Positions 5,972-32,657 of a DNA stretch of 32,657 nucleotides are shown one piece after another. The notes under the pieces were generated by a model. It saw nothing but the letters and a program-made list of their open reading frames with translations, ran no database searches and was not told the DNA's origin. Origin of the DNA: Lactobacillales bacterium (lineage in GTDB: Bacteria > Bacillota > Bacilli > Lactobacillales > Streptococcaceae); NCBI GenBank assembly GCA_031288715.1, contig JAITQW010000035.1, forward strand, positions 1 to 32,657, given 5' to 3'. The translations under genes were made by a program, and so were the position numbers. Positions within the stretch are counted from its first letter, which is position 1. Each line of letters begins with the position of its first letter.

Positions 5972-7054
5972 TTATGTTTTACTATTTTCGATCTCTAAAA
6001 ACTCTTCAATCTGCTGGTCCATCACTTTAACAACATCATTTTTTGCAAAATATGCTTTTGTCCAATCAACTGTTTTTTCAACAGCTTCGTTAATATTCCA
6101 ACAAGGCTGCCAACCAAATTTCATTTTTAGCCTGGAACAATCCAATTTTAAAAAGTTTGCTTCATGGGAATTTTGTATATCATTTTTAATTTCTCGCTGC
6201 GGACCATCATCCCCCCATTTTTCACAAAATAAGTTTACTAAAGATTCTGTTGAAATACAATCACATTCATCTGGACCAATATTATAATAATCAGCTAACT
6301 TTTTGTTTTTATACTGTTTTTCAACAATTAAAAGGTAAGCATATATTGGTTCTAATACATGTTGATATGGTCGAATCGAATGTGGATTGCGAATAATAAT
6401 CTTCTCATTATTTTCTATCGCTCGAACGCAATCTGGAATAATACGATCTTTTGAAAAATCGCCACCACCAATCACATTCCCTGCTCTAGCAGTAGATATT
6501 GCAATCCTATTATCAGCAAAAAAAGAAGACTTATAACTATGAGTAGCTAATTCTGAACAAGATTTAGAATTCGAGTAAGGATCAAAACCATCTAAAGGAT
6601 CGATTTCCCGATAACCCCATTCCCATTCATTATTTTGATAAACTTTATCAGTAGTAACATTTAAAAATGATTTAACAAATGAAGAATTTCTAATACATTC
6701 AAGAATATTAACCGTCCCCATCACATTCGTTGAATAAGTTTCCACAGGATTCGCATAACTTTTCCGAACCAACGATTGCGCTGCTAAATGAAAAACTACC
6801 TCCGGTTTAGATTCTAAAAAAGCTTTTCTTAAAGAATCTAAGTCTCTTATATCTCCATTAATGGAAATCATATCTTGCTTAATATTAGCCAATTTAAAAA
6901 GACTAGGTGAAGTTGGTAAATTTAAAGAATAGCCCGTAACGTTTGCTCCAGCTTTAATTAACATTCGACACAACCAAGATCCCTTAAACCCCGTATGCCC
7001 AGTAACAAAAACATTTTTCCCTTTGTAAAACTCCAACATTGACTTATTTTTCAC
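5972..7054 (-). CDS. rfbG: CDP-glucose 4,6-dehydratase
   Basis: Converts CDP-D-glucose to CDP-4-dehydro-6-deoxy-D-glucose, the branch point of CDP-deoxysugar pathways. VFVTGHTGFKGSWL is the diagnostic N-terminal NAD-binding signature of RfbG. DPYSNSKS holds the YxxxK pair and RAGNVIGGGDFSKDRIIPD is another family hallmark. Three starts are possible. The far upstream ATG at 7078 lies well inside rfbF and gives an unusual N-terminus. GTG at 7054 follows GGAAGG by 9 bases and is my choice. ATG at 7039 fits the family length but has no good ribosome binding site. It overlaps the end of rfbF, so the two genes are coupled. Confidence 0.93.
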   Translation of the reverse strand: MKNKSMLEFYKGKNVFVTGHTGFKGSWLCRMLIKAGANVTGYSLNLPTSPSLFKLANIKQDMISINGDIRDLDSLRKAFLESKPEVVFHLAAQSLVRKSYANPVETYSTNVMGTVNILECIRNSSFVKSFLNVTTDKVYQNNEWEWGYREIDPLDGFDPYSNSKSCSELATHSYKSSFFADNRIAISTARAGNVIGGGDFSKDRIIPDCVRAIENNEKIIIRNPHSIRPYQHVLEPIYAYLLIVEKQYKNKKLADYYNIGPDECDCISTESLVNLFCEKWGDDGPQREIKNDIQNSHEANFLKLDCSRLKMKFGWQPCWNINEAVEKTVDWTKAYFAKNDVVKVMDQQIEEFLEIENSKT

Positions 7055-8093: not shown

Positions 8094-9210
8094 CAATTAT
8101 AGCACACCCAACCTCAACATCCTCTTCCGTTAAATACGGATGTATTGGCAAAGATAAAACCACTTCACATAACTTCTTGGAAATCGATAAATCTCTCGCC
8201 GTTATTACATCTAAATCTTTATATGCTGTTTGATCTGAAATTGTTTTTGGATAATAAATCATCGTTGGTATGTCGGCAGTTTTTAAATTTTTTTTCAATT
8301 CGTCTCTTTGTTCTTTATTTTTTAATTTAACTGTATACTGAGCCCAACTAGAATAAAATCCTTGTGGCACAGTTGGAATATCAACGATATTTTTCAATCG
8401 CTGATCATACCATTTAGCTACCCTATTTACTGCTTTAAGCTCATAATCTATAAATGCTTTCAACTTCACTTGCAAAATCGCTGCCTGAATTGTATCAAGT
8501 CTTGAATTCATTCCTAATCTAATATTATCATATAGGTCTGATCCGTTTTTACCATGAACTCTAATCGATCTTAGATAATCCGCATAATCATCATTATCTG
8601 TAAAAACAGCTCCACCATCTCCATAACAACCTAATGGTTTAGCAGGAAAAAATGATGTCGTAGAAATATCACCAAAACAACAAGCTCTCTTACTGTTTAT
8701 ACTACCACCAAAACCTTGCGCAGCATCTTCAACTATCTTTAAATTATATTTATTTGCTATTTTTCTTATCTTAATATAATCAGCAGGTAGACCAAATAAG
8801 TCTACAGAAATAATCACTTTTGGAATCAATCTTCCTTCTGACAATGTATCTTCTATAGCCATTTCCAATTTCTGCGAATCAATATTGAACGTATCTTCAT
8901 CGACATCCACAAAAATAGGTGTCGCTCTGCTAAAAGACACTGCTTCAGCCGTTGCAAAAAAGGTAAAATTAGGAACAAAAACAGCGTCTCCTTTTTTTAT
9001 ACCTAAAACCATTAAAGCCATTGTTAGTGCGTCTGTTCCATTTCCACAAGTAATACAATGCTTCACACCAACATATTCAGCTAAGGAATTTTCCAACTCT
9101 ACAACTTGCCTTCCTGAAATATAATTTGATTTATCTAAAACAAACGAAATAGCATTATCAATATCTTTTTTTAATATTTGATACTGTTTTTTTAAATCTT
9201 TAAATTGCAC
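8065..9210 (-). CDS. wbpE: WbpE-type PLP aminotransferase for UDP-3-keto-uronic acid
   Basis: DegT/DnrJ/EryC1-family sugar aminotransferase. ITCGNGTDAL, VEDAAQ (Asp about 162) and SFFPAKPLGCYGDGG (PLP lysine about 191) are the cofactor-binding signatures. The stretch through NIRLGMNSRLDTIQAAIL and SLPIHPYL matches my memory of Pseudomonas WbpE/WlbC closely. That enzyme transaminates UDP-2-acetamido-3-keto-glucuronic acid at C3. The matching WlbA-type dehydrogenase lies upstream in the same run of genes, and a WbpA-type 6-dehydrogenase at 16175, which supports the assignment. The start is GTG with a weak, rather distant AAAGG. The last residues after GCAIIE differ from the usual ending and sit on a recombination scar. 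Confidence 0.88.
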   Translation of the reverse strand: MQFKDLKKQYQILKKDIDNAISFVLDKSNYISGRQVVELENSLAEYVGVKHCITCGNGTDALTMALMVLGIKKGDAVFVPNFTFFATAEAVSFSRATPIFVDVDEDTFNIDSQKLEMAIEDTLSEGRLIPKVIISVDLFGLPADYIKIRKIANKYNLKIVEDAAQGFGGSINSKRACCFGDISTTSFFPAKPLGCYGDGGAVFTDNDDYADYLRSIRVHGKNGSDLYDNIRLGMNSRLDTIQAAILQVKLKAFIDYELKAVNRVAKWYDQRLKNIVDIPTVPQGFYSSWAQYTVKLKNKEQRDELKKNLKTADIPTMIYYPKTISDQTAYKDLDVITARDLSISKKLCEVVLSLPIHPYLTEEDVEVGCAIIENRLLCSIL

Positions 9211-10961: not shown

Positions 10962-11617
10962 ACCCCCCCCCCTGTATTAGTTCTTTTTAAAGATAAATTA
11001 TTCTTTCCATAACGATAAGCATCATATTCGTTAGTACTTTTTGTTATTGTACAACCAGCTCCAACACATGTTAACGGCTCCATCGTTAATGAATTTCCAA
11101 CCACACTACCAGCGCCCAAAAAACAATTATCTTTAATATTTGTATCTCCACAAACAGTAGCACCAGGCGAAAAATAATTAAAATTGCCAATTTGTGAATG
11201 GTGAGCAATAGTCACCGAACTTTCAAAAAAATTACCTTTCCCTATTCTAACAAAAGGTTCAATAACAACTCCGGGAAAAATAATAGTTCCTTCTCCTACT
11301 TCGTCGGTAAATACATGAGCTTTATTACTAATAAATGATAATATTTTATACCCCAAGTTTCTAACCTGTTCAAATTTCTTTTGACGATTTCGAACCATAT
11401 TTTTGTATCCGAAAGAAATTATAATAGAATATTTATCTTGTGGATAAACCTGAGTAATATTTTCAAACTCTATCACAGGAAGTCCAAGTAGAGTTTTTGT
11501 TTTCATATAATCACGATCTACAACAAATGCAACAACTTTTTTTTGTTTTTCTAAATCTAAGTAATATTTTATCTGTTGCGCCTCTTGACTAATACCATAT
11601 ATCAGTATATTTTCCAT
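10958..11617 (-). CDS. NeuD/PglD-type left-handed beta-helix acyltransferase
   Basis: The N-terminal 80 residues form a small Rossmann-like domain (MENILIYGISQEAQQIKYYL), followed by hexapeptide repeats (GEGTIIFPGVVIEPFVRIGKGNFF, IGNFNYFSPGATVCGDTNI, NCFLGAGSVVG) that fold as a left-handed beta-helix. The AHHSQIG histidine is the usual catalytic residue. Relatives N- or O-acetylate sugars using acetyl-CoA. With the WlbA- and WbpE-type neighbours it could acylate the C3 amino group, in place of WbpD/WlbB. The start overlaps the upstream stop (TAATG). The C-terminus is unusual: it runs into the G10 tract and ends TNTGGGV, so its stop position depends on the tract length. With 8 or 11 G it would be fused in frame to the formyltransferase. 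Confidence 0.83.
   Translation of the reverse strand: MENILIYGISQEAQQIKYYLDLEKQKKVVAFVVDRDYMKTKTLLGLPVIEFENITQVYPQDKYSIIISFGYKNMVRNRQKKFEQVRNLGYKILSFISNKAHVFTDEVGEGTIIFPGVVIEPFVRIGKGNFFESSVTIAHHSQIGNFNYFSPGATVCGDTNIKDNCFLGAGSVVGNSLTMEPLTCVGAGCTITKSTNEYDAYRYGKNNLSLKRTNTGGGV
10963..10972. repeat. Homopolymer tract of 10 C (G10 on the coding strand)
   Basis: Ten consecutive C on the plus strand, exactly at the junction of the acyltransferase stop and the formyltransferase N-terminus. On the minus strand, 10 G gives GGG-GGG-GGG-GTA-TAA (stop) and 9 G also stops two codons later. 8 or 11 G would give GGT-ATA-AAT-AAA and join both proteins. G runs of this length slip readily during replication. 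Confidence 0.9.
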
Positions 11618-19049: not shown

Positions 19050-20261
19050 TTATACACTCAAATATTCTTGCAATACATCAGAAATAATATGATTACCTTT
19101 AGTACTGTGATGACCAAATTTATTCACAAATAAGCTTTCAATAACATCTAAGTTCATGAATCGCCAGGATTTATCATACATGTCAATAATATTTAATTTT
19201 GGGCAAGAAATTTTAATATCTCTTATTACATCATGATATAATTTATTACCTTCTCTCATAAACAATATATGATCATAAGTAGGAAGTATCAATAAATGAG
19301 GTACAAATTTGTGAATTTCTGAAAAATTAATAAAACGTTCAATAAGTTTAATAAACAACTGTGCTTCTGTTCTATATAAATAAGCTAAATAAATTGTTTC
19401 TTTTCTTTTTTCCTCTTTGATGTAGCTTTGAGATGCTTTTAAAAACACCTCTTCTTTAACTGCTAAAATATGATTTTTTCTAATTCTTTTAGCAATTTCA
19501 TATGATATCCTAGTAAACTCAAAATCTCTTAAAGATTTATTAGTAGCTAAATAAAGTAAACTTGATAAGTTTTGTTTTTGTTTTTGTTTTAAAAAATGTC
19601 TATAATTCCCATCATTTTGATGTAAAAATTTTTCTTTTTTTTTTATCCTTAAAAATTCATCCGGACATTGAATAAAATTTGGAATTAATTTTAATCCACC
19701 ATTTTGTAAAACAAATCTTGGCTTTGCTCCTAATACATTTCCTGGCTCAGAGTAATGTTTCCATACACTCAAAATACGCTCAATGGTTAATGGTGTAATA
19801 GCTATAATCACATGCTTTGTTTTGTCTTTCAAAAATTGTGATTCCATTCTTAAAAGAGCTTGATCTAAACCATAGTTACCTACTCCATAGTTGCTTACAT
19901 AAGAATGTGTTCGTTTAGATAAAAACGCTTGAAAAGTGGCATTTTCTGGAGCTTCTCGACATAAACAAAATGAATCACCATAAGTTGAAACAAAACCACG
20001 TTCAAACGGAATATTAAGCAAACGACTTCCATAAGCATCAATAGAATAAATATCTGCAAATGGAACTCCTGTATAGATGCTTACATTCTTTTTATGAGAA
20101 TTAGGTATAGGACACCATCCTAATTGTGCATCAAATGTTGTAAATTTTTTTATCATCTTCTTAGTTATACGCGGAAATTCTATTAAATAGTACCCTTTTT
20201 TAGAAAGTTTCCTTTTGATTAAAATATCTAAAAACAACAAAACAATAACTATCCATTTCAT
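19050..20261 (-). CDS. Membrane-anchored SGNH/GDSL-like protein
   Basis: 403 residues. The N-terminus (MKWIVIVLLFLDILI) is a single hydrophobic anchor or uncleaved signal. STYGDSFCLC gives the GDS nucleophile motif (Ser about 97), SNYGVGNYGLDQ the block with conserved Gly/Asn, and GHHSTKGNH near the C-terminus the catalytic histidine block. Where relatives often have Asp before this His, I read Asn-Lys-Phe-Gly, so the triad may be altered. SGNH proteins in polysaccharide loci add or remove acyl groups. Because it sits inside the predicted phosphoramidate block, a role in transfer or trimming of that group is also possible. That is speculation. It starts 35 bp after the kinase gene. Confidence 0.65.
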   Translation of the reverse strand: MKWIVIVLLFLDILIKRKLSKKGYYLIEFPRITKKMIKKFTTFDAQLGWCPIPNSHKKNVSIYTGVPFADIYSIDAYGSRLLNIPFERGFVSTYGDSFCLCREAPENATFQAFLSKRTHSYVSNYGVGNYGLDQALLRMESQFLKDKTKHVIIAITPLTIERILSVWKHYSEPGNVLGAKPRFVLQNGGLKLIPNFIQCPDEFLRIKKKEKFLHQNDGNYRHFLKQKQKQNLSSLLYLATNKSLRDFEFTRISYEIAKRIRKNHILAVKEEVFLKASQSYIKEEKRKETIYLAYLYRTEAQLFIKLIERFINFSEIHKFVPHLLILPTYDHILFMREGNKLYHDVIRDIKISCPKLNIIDMYDKSWRFMNLDVIESLFVNKFGHHSTKGNHIISDVLQEYLSV

Positions 20262-27697: not shown

Positions 27698-28612
27698 TTA
27701 CAACAATACATCCATTGCCCATTGTTCTGGCTGATTTTCTTCTTGCACACGAAGTAATTTCAATAGCTCTCCGTTTTTTACCGCAACATAAACTCCTCCA
27801 TCTTTGTCAGAAGGCAAAAACTCTCCTGGGGCTAGTTTCGTTTTTTCTTTCGTTCTTTCTGCACTCCAAACAATAACTTTTTGCCCATTATACATAAAAA
27901 AAGCTCCTGGGTAGGGTTTTGTTTGAGCACGCATAAAATTATATAGCTCTAAAGCTCCTAAATTGAACTCAAATTCTCCATCTTCTGGTTTGCGCTTGCC
28001 ATAATAAGTTGCCTTTGATTCATCTTGAACAATTTCATTAAAAAAACCACTAGTCCAATCAACTATATTCTCTTTTATAATAGTTGAAGACGATAATGCT
28101 ATCTTGTCATATACAGTAGAAACATCATCATACATAGTAATATCAAATAATTTTTGAGCATAAATCTCTCCCTCATCATAGCGCTCAACCATTTTAAAGA
28201 AAGTATCCCCCCATTTTGTTTCTCCTGTCAAAATAGCCCAATTTACACAAGCTGCACCGCGACCTCTAGGTAAAGGAGCAGGATGTTCTCCTATACATCC
28301 ATATTTGGGAAGCAAAAGTAATTCATTTCCGAATTTTTGCGACCATCCAGATTGAATAATGATATCCGGCTCTTTCTCTCGAATCCAATTCAAAGTAACT
28401 GGATTATTAACATTCTCACAATAATGAATGGGTAAATTAAAATTTAACGCCAAATCAGAATAACTATCATAATTGGCTTTATTTAATGCAGCTGAAAAAC
28501 TAAGATTAACTACCCCGCACAAATCAACTTCTAGCAATTACGGATCTTTAAGCAATGTTAACATCATATAACGTGCCACAGGTGTACAAGCAATAAACAA
28601 AACTTTACCCAT
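27698..28612 (-). pseudogene. Second N-formyltransferase, interrupted by an early stop
   Basis: The natural start is ATG at 28612, with AAAGGAG about 7 bases upstream, encoding MGKVLFIACTPVARYMM. After LLKDP an in-frame TAA (28540-28538) interrupts the gene at codon 25. The same frame then continues uninterrupted as LLEVDLCGVVNLSF to the normal end, so a single base change such as CAA or GAA to TAA is enough to explain it. The body has the formyltransferase signature EHPAPLPRGRGAACVNWAI and RYDEGEIYAQ, plus the C-terminal FMT-like domain. The Asn usually found two before the His is Gly here. Reinitiation at the TTG just after the stop is possible but would lose the first beta strand. Confidence 0.8.
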
Positions 28613-28662
28613 TAAATTACTCCTTTAAAAAATAACTATAAATAACTTTTCATTACTTACAT

Positions 28663-29271
28663 TTACATTAAAGTTTTAATCGGTACAAAACTTTCAGCAT
28701 ATTCTACTTTATTTGCATATCCCCAAATTTTATTGCGTTCCATTACTATTTCAAATAATTTACCAAACCGATTATGTTGATTTCCATAATTTTTTAATGC
28801 TTCATATTTTTTAGAAGCAAATTCCGAAATATCTAAAAATATAGAAGGATAGTATGGAATCGATAACTGATAACCATTACTTTGATACATCAATAAATTT
28901 TTGCAATGACGAGCTGCCGTTTTACACAATGTATGCGCTGCTACATGATCTTGGTTGTAATCATCATTAAAATGCATAAAAACTGTATCAATTTTCTTTT
29001 TAAAAATAATTGCTTCTATTTCTTGATTCTAGTTTTCCAATTGCAACTTTACTAAATGAAATTTCTTCCACTCCAAGAATTTTACATGCTTTAATACTTT
29101 CCTGAGCACTGCTTTCTTTAGAAATACTCAATCCTAAATAATCGGAAAACGTCTCATTATCAGTTAAAGTAATTTTATATACTTCCTTTCCTTGGGCAAC
29201 TAATTTTGCTGCACTCCCCCCCCGAGTTCTGTATCATCATAATGAGCTCCTACCATTAAAATTTTATTCAT
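28663..29271 (-). pseudogene. PIG-L/LmbE-type N-deacetylase, frameshifted at a G8 tract
   Basis: From ATG 29271 the protein reads MNKILMVGAHYDDTELGG, the LmbE zinc motif AHxDDxE. The G8 run (29216-29223) then throws it out of frame, ending six codons later. One more G (or two fewer) restores SAAKLVAQGKEVYKITLTDNE and so on. A second one-base shift near 29021-29033 is needed to reach IEAIIFKKKIDTVF and NDDYNQDHVAAH, which holds the third zinc ligand, and the normal end at 28663. Members of the family deacetylate N-acetylated sugars. The formyltransferase downstream could then formylate the free amine. Both genes are broken in this sequence. The SD (GGAGG in the capF stop region) is rather distant. 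Confidence 0.78.
29216..29223. repeat. Homopolymer tract of 8 C (G8 on the coding strand)
   Basis: Eight C on the plus strand near the start of the deacetylase coding frame, inside the zinc-binding segment. 8 G is out of frame; 6 or 9 G would be in frame to the second frameshift. It is a candidate slippage site. Confidence 0.9.
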
Positions 29272-29281
29272 ATCCAATAGC

Positions 29282-30394
29282 TTATACCTCCATAAAATAC
29301 GTATCTGACTGATTTGGATCAAACGCTTCATTCACCCACATTATCGTAACCATATCTGTTTTTCCTAAATTTTCAATATTATGCACATATCCAACAGGAA
29401 TATCCACTACTTCCAATTTTTCACCTGATACATAATATTCTATCACTTTTGCTTCATCATCAACATGCCTAAAACGAATTAATCCCGTTCCACTAACCAC
29501 CAAAAATTTTTCATTTTTCGTATGATGCCAATGATTTCCTTTGACAATTCCTGGTTTTAAGACGTTAATCGACACCTGCCCACGCTCAGGAGTACGGATA
29601 AATTCCGTAAATGAACCACGATCATCTGTGTTCATTTTTAATTCATAGCTGAAATCATTTTCAGGCAAATAACTCAAATAAGTGCTATATAAATTCTTCT
29701 CCAATAAATGATCCAGTTTCGGTAACTCAAAATCTTTACGAATTCCTTTAAACTTCATCAACAAATCATAAATTTCACCGACTGTTGTAATCTCCACTTC
29801 GGGAACTTCATAGAAATTTCCACTCTTTGTTCCTTTTCCATCCAGCAAACGCAACATTTCTTTCAACACATCGTCAATATACATCAATTGCACTTCATAA
29901 TTTCGATCATGAACAACCACTTCTTCCCCGCGAGCAATCCGATGACAAAATGTCGCTACCACTGAATTATAATTCGGTTTCGACCACTTTCCATAAAGGT
30001 TTGGAAAACGATAAATATATACTAAATTTCCCGTTTCCTTCCCATATGCACGAAGCAACTCTTCGCCAGCTAGTTTGCTTTTCCCATAAGGATTATCCAA
30101 TTCCGCCTGAATCGAAGACGAAAGCATTATCGACGCTTTACTTCGATATTTTTTCAGTAAATCCAGCAATTTTGACGTGAAGCCAAAATTTCCCGTCATA
30201 AACTCTTCTTCAGTTTCAGGTCGATTAACTCCAGCTAAATGAAAAACAAAATCCGCTTTCTTGACATATTTTTCTAACAACGCAGAATCCGTATCCACAT
30301 CAAAAACCATCACATGTTCATATCCCTGATTTTTTAATTCCATTGTCAAATTTCTGCCAACAAATCCCTTTGCACCAGTAACTAAAATTTTCAT
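29282..30394 (-). CDS. capF: CapF: SDR reductase with C-terminal cupin
   Basis: 370-residue two-domain enzyme of the UDP-L-FucNAc pathway. MKILVTGAKGFVGRNL is the NAD(P)H loop and NPYGKSKLAGEE gives YxxxK. From about residue 245 a cupin begins, with GNHWHHTKNEKF carrying the metal-binding histidines. In S. aureus the cupin epimerises C3 of the CapE product and the SDR domain reduces C4 to give UDP-L-TalNAc. The start is ATG 30394, which overlaps the capE stop (ATGA) and has GGAAGA 7 bases upstream; the ATG five codons earlier has no spacing for a ribosome binding site. The length matches CapF. Confidence 0.95.
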   Translation of the reverse strand: MKILVTGAKGFVGRNLTMELKNQGYEHVMVFDVDTDSALLEKYVKKADFVFHLAGVNRPETEEEFMTGNFGFTSKLLDLLKKYRSKASIMLSSSIQAELDNPYGKSKLAGEELLRAYGKETGNLVYIYRFPNLYGKWSKPNYNSVVATFCHRIARGEEVVVHDRNYEVQLMYIDDVLKEMLRLLDGKGTKSGNFYEVPEVEITTVGEIYDLLMKFKGIRKDFELPKLDHLLEKNLYSTYLSYLPENDFSYELKMNTDDRGSFTEFIRTPERGQVSINVLKPGIVKGNHWHHTKNEKFLVVSGTGLIRFRHVDDEAKVIEYYVSGEKLEVVDIPVGYVHNIENLGKTDMVTIMWVNEAFDPNQSDTYFMEV

Positions 30395-31416
30395 ACTTTG
30401 ATCTTCCATGCCTTCAATTCCTCTTGTACATACTCAAGTTCAAGCAATTTATCTTTGATTTGTTTCACCGTTAAACGCTTTGTATTATTTGAATTATATT
30501 CTTTTTCAGTAGACAGTTCCTCATAGCCTGAATCTAAATATTTTTCATAATTCAAATCACGAGTATCAACAGGAACACGATAAAAATCACCCAAATCCTC
30601 TGCAACTGCATACTCCTCACGCGTCAATAAAGTCTCATATTTCTTCTCTCCATGTCGTGTGCCAATCACACGAACCTTATTCTTCGCACCAAATAATTCA
30701 TTCACTGCTTGTGCTAAATCACCAATTGTTGAAGCAAGCGATTTTTGCACCATAATGTCTCCAGGTTTCGCCTCACGAAAAGCAAACATCACCAACTCAA
30801 CTGCTTCTTCCAAATTCATCAAAAAACGCGTCATCGAAGGATCAGTAATGGTCAACGGTTTACCCGCTTTAATCTGTTCAATAAACAACGGAATCACTGA
30901 TCCCCGTGAAGCCATCACATTTCCATAACGCGTCCCGCAAATCACTAATCGACTCGAATCCACAATTTTGGAACGAGCCACAAACGTTTTCTCCATCATC
31001 GCTTTGGAAATCCCCATTGCATTGATCGGGTAAGCAGCTTTATCCGTTGAAAGACAAATAACTTTTTTTACATCTGCGTTATTTGCTGCATTTAAAACAT
31101 TATCCGTTCCTAAAATATTTGTTTTCACTGCTTCAACCGGAAAAAACTCACACGATGGGACTTGCTTTAACGCCGCTGCATGAAACACATAATCAACCCC
31201 GCACATCGCACTCTGGATCGAAGTTAAATCACGCACATTACCAAGATAAAACTTCAACTTTTCATGATTGTACTTCTTACGCATGTCATCTTGCTTTTTC
31301 TCATCGCGCGAAAAAATGCGAATTTCCTTCACATCGTAATTCAAAAAACGTTTCATCACTGCATTTCCAAAAGAACCAGTTCCGCCGGTAATTAACAAAG
31401 TTTTATCTTTAAACAT
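30391..31416 (-). CDS. capE: CapE: UDP-GlcNAc 4,6-dehydratase/5-epimerase
   Basis: 341-residue SDR of the inverting 4,6-dehydratase branch and first enzyme of UDP-L-FucNAc synthesis. MFKDKTLLITGGTGSFGNAV is the typical start and NAD loop, HAAALKQVP the active-site loop, and CLSTDKAAYPINAMGISK holds the atypical Met-x-x-x-Lys of CapE/WbjB enzymes in place of Tyr-x-x-x-Lys. ATG 31416 follows GGAG by 6 bases and gives the family length; the ATG four codons upstream is less likely. This part of the window is visibly less AT-rich than the 1-16 kb part, suggesting a separate origin. Confidence 0.95.
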   Translation of the reverse strand: MFKDKTLLITGGTGSFGNAVMKRFLNYDVKEIRIFSRDEKKQDDMRKKYNHEKLKFYLGNVRDLTSIQSAMCGVDYVFHAAALKQVPSCEFFPVEAVKTNILGTDNVLNAANNADVKKVICLSTDKAAYPINAMGISKAMMEKTFVARSKIVDSSRLVICGTRYGNVMASRGSVIPLFIEQIKAGKPLTITDPSMTRFLMNLEEAVELVMFAFREAKPGDIMVQKSLASTIGDLAQAVNELFGAKNKVRVIGTRHGEKKYETLLTREEYAVAEDLGDFYRVPVDTRDLNYEKYLDSGYEELSTEKEYNSNNTKRLTVKQIKDKLLELEYVQEELKAWKIKV

Positions 31417-31448
31417 TCTATTCTCCATTCAAAACATCACCACTTTCG

Positions 31449-32501
31449 TTAATATTCTTTTTGATATTTTGAAAATCTCTCTAATGTCGCAGAAATAATG
31501 TTTTTCTTCCCACGGATAAGTAAATCAAGAACAATCTCCCCTGATTGAAATCTTCGTAACAATAGCACAAAGATAAAACTCAAAAATGTAATTATAGCAA
31601 CACCTGGAATATAATGTACTAGAAATAACTTTCTAAAAAATACAACAAAATAAAAATGCGAAAAATAAATAAATACACTCAGGTCATGAAATTCTTTTGA
31701 ATACTTATCAAAAAAAATAATTCTGATATTATATACACTTAAAAATATTAATACTACGCAAATCAAAGTAAAAACTAATAAAAGAGGTTTATTTATTTTC
31801 ATGATCTTAAAATTAACACAAATGCTATATTCTATACAGGACAAAGATAGGCCTAATAATAACATAAACAATCTATTAATATTTGTTAAAAATTTACTAA
31901 TTTTTTCTTTTTTCTCAGCAATATAAAAAGCACAAGCGATTACTGGAATTGCCATAAGATTTATAGGAATCTTTCCAATAAACCTCATAATAACAAAGGA
32001 ATAGACAGACAAACAGACAAACAGATAGATAGATAGATAGATAATAAAGCATATCATTTTATTATGAATAACACTATTTATTATTAAAACAACAAATAAT
32101 GCCATTACTAAAGCAAAAAGAAAACCAGAGCCAGGTAAAAAGGGACAACCCCTTTGAAAAATAAATATAAAGTTTAAAGGTAATTCAAATATCTTGTCTT
32201 TATGCGTCATATATAAAATTATAGTATATGGAATATATAAAATTAACCAATTTATAAATAAATTGGTTAATTTATACAAAATTTTATGAAATTCACTATA
32301 TCTATTATCGTCCGTTGTTTGACTAAAAAAATAAAATCCTGAAATAAATATAAAAAATGGCACTGCTAATCGACATAAAGAATTTCCCAAAATGTTTAAA
32401 AAATAATTTCCTGCATTAGTAATATTAAAATGAAGTAAAACAACTAATAATGAAAAAATAAATCTACAAAAATCTAATGTTCCATTTCTTATTTTTTTCA
32501 T
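31449..32501 (-). CDS. Membrane acyltransferase, family 3
   Basis: 350-residue polytopic protein with about ten membrane segments. The first segment carries R13-X10-H24 (CRFIFSLLVVLLHF), the arginine/histidine signature of acyltransferase family 3. These proteins O-acetylate or otherwise acylate sugars at the membrane. AAGG lies about 8 bases before the ATG. Codons about 153-167 are encoded by a tetranucleotide-period tract (32001-32043), so gain or loss of one unit would truncate the protein halfway. In this sequence the frame is open. It precedes capE by about 30 bp. Confidence 0.88.
   Translation of the reverse strand: MKKIRNGTLDFCRFIFSLLVVLLHFNITNAGNYFLNILGNSLCRLAVPFFIFISGFYFFSQTTDDNRYSEFHKILYKLTNLFINWLILYIPYTIILYMTHKDKIFELPLNFIFIFQRGCPFLPGSGFLFALVMALFVVLIINSVIHNKMICFIIYLSIYLFVCLSVYSFVIMRFIGKIPINLMAIPVIACAFYIAEKKEKISKFLTNINRLFMLLLGLSLSCIEYSICVNFKIMKINKPLLLVFTLICVVLIFLSVYNIRIIFFDKYSKEFHDLSVFIYFSHFYFVVFFRKLFLVHYIPGVAIITFLSFIFVLLLRRFQSGEIVLDLLIRGKKNIISATLERFSKYQKEY
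32001..32043. repeat. Tetranucleotide tract, five perfect AGAT plus degenerate units
   Basis: On the plus strand, 4-base periodicity runs through ATAG ACAG ACAA ACAG ACAA and then five perfect AGAT copies (32023-32042). It lies inside the acyltransferase coding frame. Since 4 is not a multiple of 3, any change in unit number shifts the frame. Confidence 0.85.
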
Positions 32502-32554
32502 ATCATAACCTTACCTTTACAATGCGGGATTTTTTAAACAATAATTTTTTTGGC

Positions 32555-32587
32555 GGGCTTTGTGAAGCACTTTTCTTCACAAAACCC
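32555..32587 (-). promoter_or_regulatory. 13-bp stem-loop in the leader before the acyltransferase
   Basis: On the minus strand GGGTTTTGTGAAG, a 7-base loop and CTTCACAAAGCCC form a 13-bp stem with one G-U wobble; on the plus strand the same position is a C/A mismatch. That favours function in the minus-strand RNA. It is followed by an A-run, not a U-run, so it is not a classical terminator. It may be a processing site, attenuator arm or element end. Confidence 0.45.
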
Positions 32588-32657
32588 TTGACTGTCTATT
32601 TACTTTTAAGGAATTCTAAGCCACATATGCTTCATTGGCCGAAAGATAGCTCAAGAG
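32588..32657. other. Right edge, no gene supported
   Basis: The last 70 bases contain no open frame that I can support. The upstream gene of the locus, or its promoter, is presumably just beyond the window. Confidence 0.3.

Follow-up and report, generated by a model that had tools for sequence, protein, structure and literature searches.

The question raised by this locus is whether a tetranucleotide repeat in the middle of a membrane acyltransferase gene is a phase-variable switch, as the first-pass annotation proposed, or a by-product of the codons in which it lies. The window analysed is the entire contig C38, 32,657 bases of a 1.27 Mb genome (G000; 53 contigs, 88.6% complete), and is filled by a polysaccharide gene cluster in which nearly every gene is on the minus strand. 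The acyltransferase (AT3) gene, running from 32501 to 31449, is the first gene at the high-coordinate end (Table 1). It is followed by a gene whose product is presumably CapD-like, and is preceded by the end of a multicopy element, of which 97% identical copies or parts are found on contigs C35, C48 and C17, together with shorter matches. Because the assembly stops in this repeated element, 156 bp upstream of the gene, the AT3 promoter may be out of view; a promoter scan around the gene had a yield no higher than that obtained in shuffles.

Table 1. Positions of the features discussed, in the window unless a relative's genome and locus are named.
Feature	Position	Strand	Remarks
AT3 gene (Acyl_transf_3 membrane acyltransferase)	31449..32501	-	350 aa, reading frame intact, PF01757 match
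Presumed CapD-like nucleotide-sugar epimerase/dehydratase, polysaccharide cluster	30391..31428	-	next gene downstream of AT3 gene; relatives 65-84% identity
End of multicopy element, directly upstream of AT3 gene	32520..32657	.	contig stops inside element
Perfect tetranucleotide tract, (AGAT)5.25 on + strand, (ATCT)5.25 on coding strand	32023..32043	-	unique in genome
Five diverged units	32003..32022	-	unit table; period-8 row of Tandem Repeats Finder
Predicted helix holding whole tract, codons 147-171	31989..32063	-	AlphaFold2 model and homologue alignment
(ACGA)23 after start of DUF6625 gene	G024, L173 909-1001		
(GCAGA)8.4 after ATG of AT3 gene	G024, L173 2127-2168		leaves gene off-frame (read by hand)
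(AGAGC)20 after ATG of second AT3 gene	G024, L173 17171-17271		

The perfect part of the tract consists of five full AGAT units, as annotated, and spans 21 bp of exact period 4. Since the AT3 gene is on the minus strand, these units are read first and the diverged ones after them. The diverged units are indeed present, with the same 4-base period, but only five are clear (AGAC AGAC AAAC AGAC AAAC on the plus strand, GTTT GTCT GTTT GTCT GTCT on the coding strand) instead of the six originally counted; the block beyond them (31999-32002) matches the unit at only 2 of its 4 bases. All five can be derived from ATCT exclusively by A-to-G and C-to-T transitions. At the protein level, the perfect units encode I154-L160 and the diverged units F161-S168 (IYLSIYLFVCLSVYS).

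Identification of the host gene as an acyltransferase is supported. The 350-aa product scores 50.1 bits with PF01757, above the cut-off of 31 (E 2.8e-13), in a match that covers profile positions 3-325 of 326, and contains an R-X10-H motif (R13 and H24), the histidine of which is kept in the aligned homologues. This motif, located in helix 1 and represented in OafB by R14 and H25, has been called absolutely conserved in AT3 acyltransferases (PMC9833829). A second motif, RXXR, which lies in helix 3 on its cytoplasmic side, has been called highly conserved (PMC9833829); no R..R was seen anywhere in the translation when it was read by eye, and the motif was treated here as typical of the AT3 family, not as defining it. 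The product is presumably an O-acyltransferase for a surface polysaccharide, a substrate suggested by the gene neighbourhood. Matches to the acyltransferase are at the family level (21-28% identity); no close relative was found in the genome contig collection or among the four further genomes of the genus, and a fold search of the PDB gave no match at E up to 0.001. A 301-bp stretch around the tract was found only in its own genome when searched across the genus, and the tract DNA had no match in viral contigs.

An AlphaFold2 model places residues 147-171 in one helix, with a local pLDDT of about 64-75; the confidence is middling, given a mean pLDDT of 72 and an alignment of ten sequences. Residues 154-168, encoded by the tract, fall wholly within this predicted helix, in agreement with the suggestion that the repeat encodes part of a membrane segment. 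In alignments with homologues (19-24% identity), the tract helix is paired with a helix of the homologues, and any gap there is no longer than 2 residues. Taken together with the one-helix model, this indicates that the tract is the coding sequence of an expected helix and not an extra insert.

The frame is currently open across the tract (gene ON). In each of the other frames a stop follows soon after the perfect units, 11 codons beyond them in one and 34 in the other. If a single unit were added or lost, about half of the protein would therefore remain, with the last helices missing, which bears out the mid-protein truncation foreseen from the sequence. Both R13 and H24 are encoded before the tract, and a truncated product would still have an incomplete domain.

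The repeat could in principle reflect composition only, with the hydrophobic codons of an AT-rich genome falling into period 4 by accident, and numerous short runs do sit in helix codons. This explanation is made highly improbable by the null models. For 1.27 Mb, composition predicts about 3e-4 runs of period 4 that reach 21 bp or more, and no run above 16 bp arose when a 355-kb sample was simulated 10 times under an order-3 Markov null. When codons were re-sampled 20,000 times with the local peptide kept the same, no trial yielded a run as long as 21 bp, and the longest run in 5,000 trials with shuffled proteins was 19 bp. The tetranucleotide tract is thus far beyond chance and is not due to composition alone. 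In the whole genome, the pattern AGATAGATAGAT has a single location, the AT3 tract, which is also the only place where AGAT is repeated three or more times. In stretches of G000 covering about 62% of the genome (785 kb), from which its repeat background was taken, no period-4 run besides the tract exceeds 13 bp, the length of the second longest, and there are no other tetra- or pentanucleotide runs above 17 bp.

The tract is probably a microsatellite that arose by replication slippage in T-rich membrane-helix codons and has half decayed, rather than an evolved high-rate switch. T-rich codons for hydrophobic residues may seed short runs, a few of which would be lengthened by slippage; the AT3 tract may have settled at a length that fits the helix and then half decayed through transitions. 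The gene would be read through the tract to give the full-length protein, and rare slippage could still knock it out. We infer both the slippage origin and the low present rate, the latter presumably applying at five units by a figure borrowed from other species, and the transitions-only changes in the diverged units appear as expected from ageing of a slipped run. Support comes from a comparison of in-gene runs (at least 13 bp for tetranucleotides and at least 15 bp for pentanucleotides) in two genomes of the genus, G000 and G004. Seven of these 16 runs lie in 19-aa windows with a Kyte-Doolittle mean above 1.6, compared with 3.5-4.2% of windows overall (binomial p about 8e-7), although this enrichment depends on n=16 runs and on thresholds chosen by the analyst. 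The closest parallels within the genus, both in helix codons and in frame, are (TTTCT)6, which lies in the gene of a DUF6020 protein, and (TTAT)4.5, which lies in that of a membrane protein in or near the polysaccharide cluster of G004. Counter to the by-product reading, no period-4 run as long as the AT3 tract was seen elsewhere in the genome, and the tract is found in a surface-modification gene. Genes of that kind are the class in which contingency loci are usual.

Contingency-like loci are found in other members of the family, mostly with 6-29 units at or near the gene start, and some of them are off-frame. The tracts (ACGA)5 and (GAGCA)4 have many matches in three relatives from the same family (G024, G055 and G017), with ACGA at several places each in G024 and G055 and GAGCA likewise in G024 and G017; neither occurs in G000 or G004. 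Judged by appearance, these relatives' tracts look like real switches. The AT3 genes of G024 (loci L007 and L173), which belongs to another genus, resemble the present gene in matching PF01757 and in coming from the same family, the L007 gene being one homologue at about 24% identity. However, they differ in having 8.4 and 20 GAGCA units directly after the start codon, with the shorter tract leaving its gene off-frame.

Similar arrays were encountered elsewhere in the family. In G055 (L247), (GACA)11.5 is present at the start of a hexapeptide transferase (8292-8337) and (CAACC)17 inside a Caps_synth gene (6436-6520). In two further family genomes (L204 and L208, about 1500-1577), (ACGA)6 and (ACGA)19 occur close to where long reading frames begin; by eye, these frames look like type III DNA methyltransferases. 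An (ACGA)-type array of about 23 units lies at 24-116 of L018, a contig filed as 'Bacteroidales Cd354_bin6', which also has a gene 84% identical to the CapD-like protein of the window; this would point to a wrong bin or to gene transfer. (AGAT)5 was also considered as support from elsewhere, and matches were found in five of 295 family genomes, this one included; those in the other genomes give no support, because they are situated either away from clear genes or within frames that are short or doubtful.

Phase-variable O-acetyltransferases are already known. Haemophilus influenzae oafA is described as a phase-variable AT3 O-acetyltransferase gene acting on a surface glycan and containing tetranucleotide repeats (PMC9558356 and the title of its reference 73). 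The present gene is likewise an AT3 gene with tetranucleotide repeats, and its surface glycan role is presumed; however, switching is established for oafA, whereas here there is only a candidate, with a short interrupted tract, in a low-GC host from another phylum. In Streptococcus pneumoniae wciZ (15B/15C), an in-gene tandem repeat shifts the frame and the serotypes interchange (PMC5028725). This gene is also a capsule-cluster O-acetyltransferase with an in-gene tandem repeat in a low-GC Gram-positive species, but the repeat is a TA dinucleotide and its variation is documented in isolates. In Streptococcus suis modS, a GAGCA(n) tract at the 5' end, with 18-28 units in tested strains, has been shown to vary (PMC6265453); it too is a simple sequence repeat with a unit that is not a multiple of three, in a low-GC Gram-positive gene, but it is a 5'-end tract of 18-28 units and not a five-unit tract in the middle of an AT3 gene. 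The earlier statement that loci of the tetranucleotide type are little known in low-GC Gram-positives is corrected by wciZ (PMC5028725), by modS (PMC6265453) and by the three relatives described above.

These comparisons bear on the proposal of a working low-rate contingency locus, in which slippage in (AGAT)5 toggles the AT3 gene and so varies acylation of the surface polysaccharide. The unit length is not a multiple of three, the frame is open with early stops in both others, the host gene modifies the surface, and there are precedents both in the pentanucleotide tracts of relatives' AT3 genes and in oafA (PMC9558356) and wciZ (PMC5028725); nevertheless, we consider it unlikely. The tract has only five perfect units in an interrupted array at the centre of the gene, and a GAGCA[6] tract has been called highly stable in S. 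suis (PMC6265453), although five units is above the floor of an H. influenzae survey, which listed tetranucleotide repeats from 3 units up. The motifs used by the relatives, (ACGA)5 and (GAGCA)4, are absent from the genome, and the 785 kb covered has no other tetra- or pentanucleotide run above 17 bp, so that no set of contingency-like loci was seen in G000. Two heptanucleotide tracts on contig C21 look intergenic. A genome-wide set of such loci is usual, but not strictly required. With five units, an interruption, a mid-gene position and an in-frame state (ON), the AT3 tract is unlike a contingency locus, and the view of it as a working phase-variable tract is not supported; phase variation is possible but not favoured. 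A variant of this proposal, in which a live low-rate switch lies inside the helix and the repeat is itself part of the AT3 domain, is distinctly improbable; if it were true, three-unit changes would keep the frame and alter the helix by four residues, and other changes would turn the enzyme off.

A related explanation is that the tract is the relic of a once-long tetranucleotide switch that has decayed and become locked ON. What would recommend it is the array itself, in which half of the ten blocks of period 4 are mutated, and the view of the repeat as an old expanded tract is upheld to the extent that the sequence suggests past slippage. However, the helix is about as long as that of repeat-free homologues, so that there is no sign of a formerly longer tract, and most long tracts in the family sit at the gene start and not in the middle. 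A relic is accordingly quite unlikely.

As it stands, the AT3 tract is of little weight. If it is a slippage by-product, T-rich membrane-helix codons of AT-rich genomes would generate short microsatellites liable to be taken for phase-variable loci; a literature search yielded nothing on microsatellites in membrane helices. If switching were true, tetranucleotide-controlled surface acylation would be added to the few cases known in low-GC Gram-positives. More weight attaches to the wider context: long (ACGA)n and (GAGCA)n tracts form sets in several family members, and some lie in glycan-modifying genes.

Other repeats and frame breaks were observed in the same genome. On the coding strand, ten consecutive G (10963-10972) form the longest G/C run in the genome. 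They lie at the 3' terminus of a hexapeptide-transferase gene (11617-10958), and are followed by a formyltransferase frame (to 10248) with no ATG start in view and an offset across the run. Given that missing ATG and the offset, whether the two frames are joined could depend on the length of the run, which is a better candidate for phase variation than the AGAT tract, although an assembly error in the run is possible. A deacetylase-like gene (28538-29280), named by eye and without a Pfam match for its 3' part, has two frame breaks, one of which coincides with eight consecutive G (29216-29223); the adjoining formyltransferase gene has an in-frame stop; from such lesions, the polysaccharide cluster seems to be decaying. 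A second AT3-like stretch on another contig (L265, G000:C22:12561-13223) is below the Pfam cut-off and has two internal stop codons. On contig C21, (GGAAGCA)9 and (GGAAGCA)6 occupy two apparently intergenic places with similar flanks (L125 7275-7338 and 11343-11385). On contig C26 (L130 3976-4007), (ATATCC)5 is in frame and encodes a tyrosine-rich tail (YGYGYG) in a protein that looks like a CpsD-type kinase. Finally, a frame-keeping hexanucleotide, (TTTTGT)3.5, is present in the window at 19570-19590, within the gene at 20261-19050.
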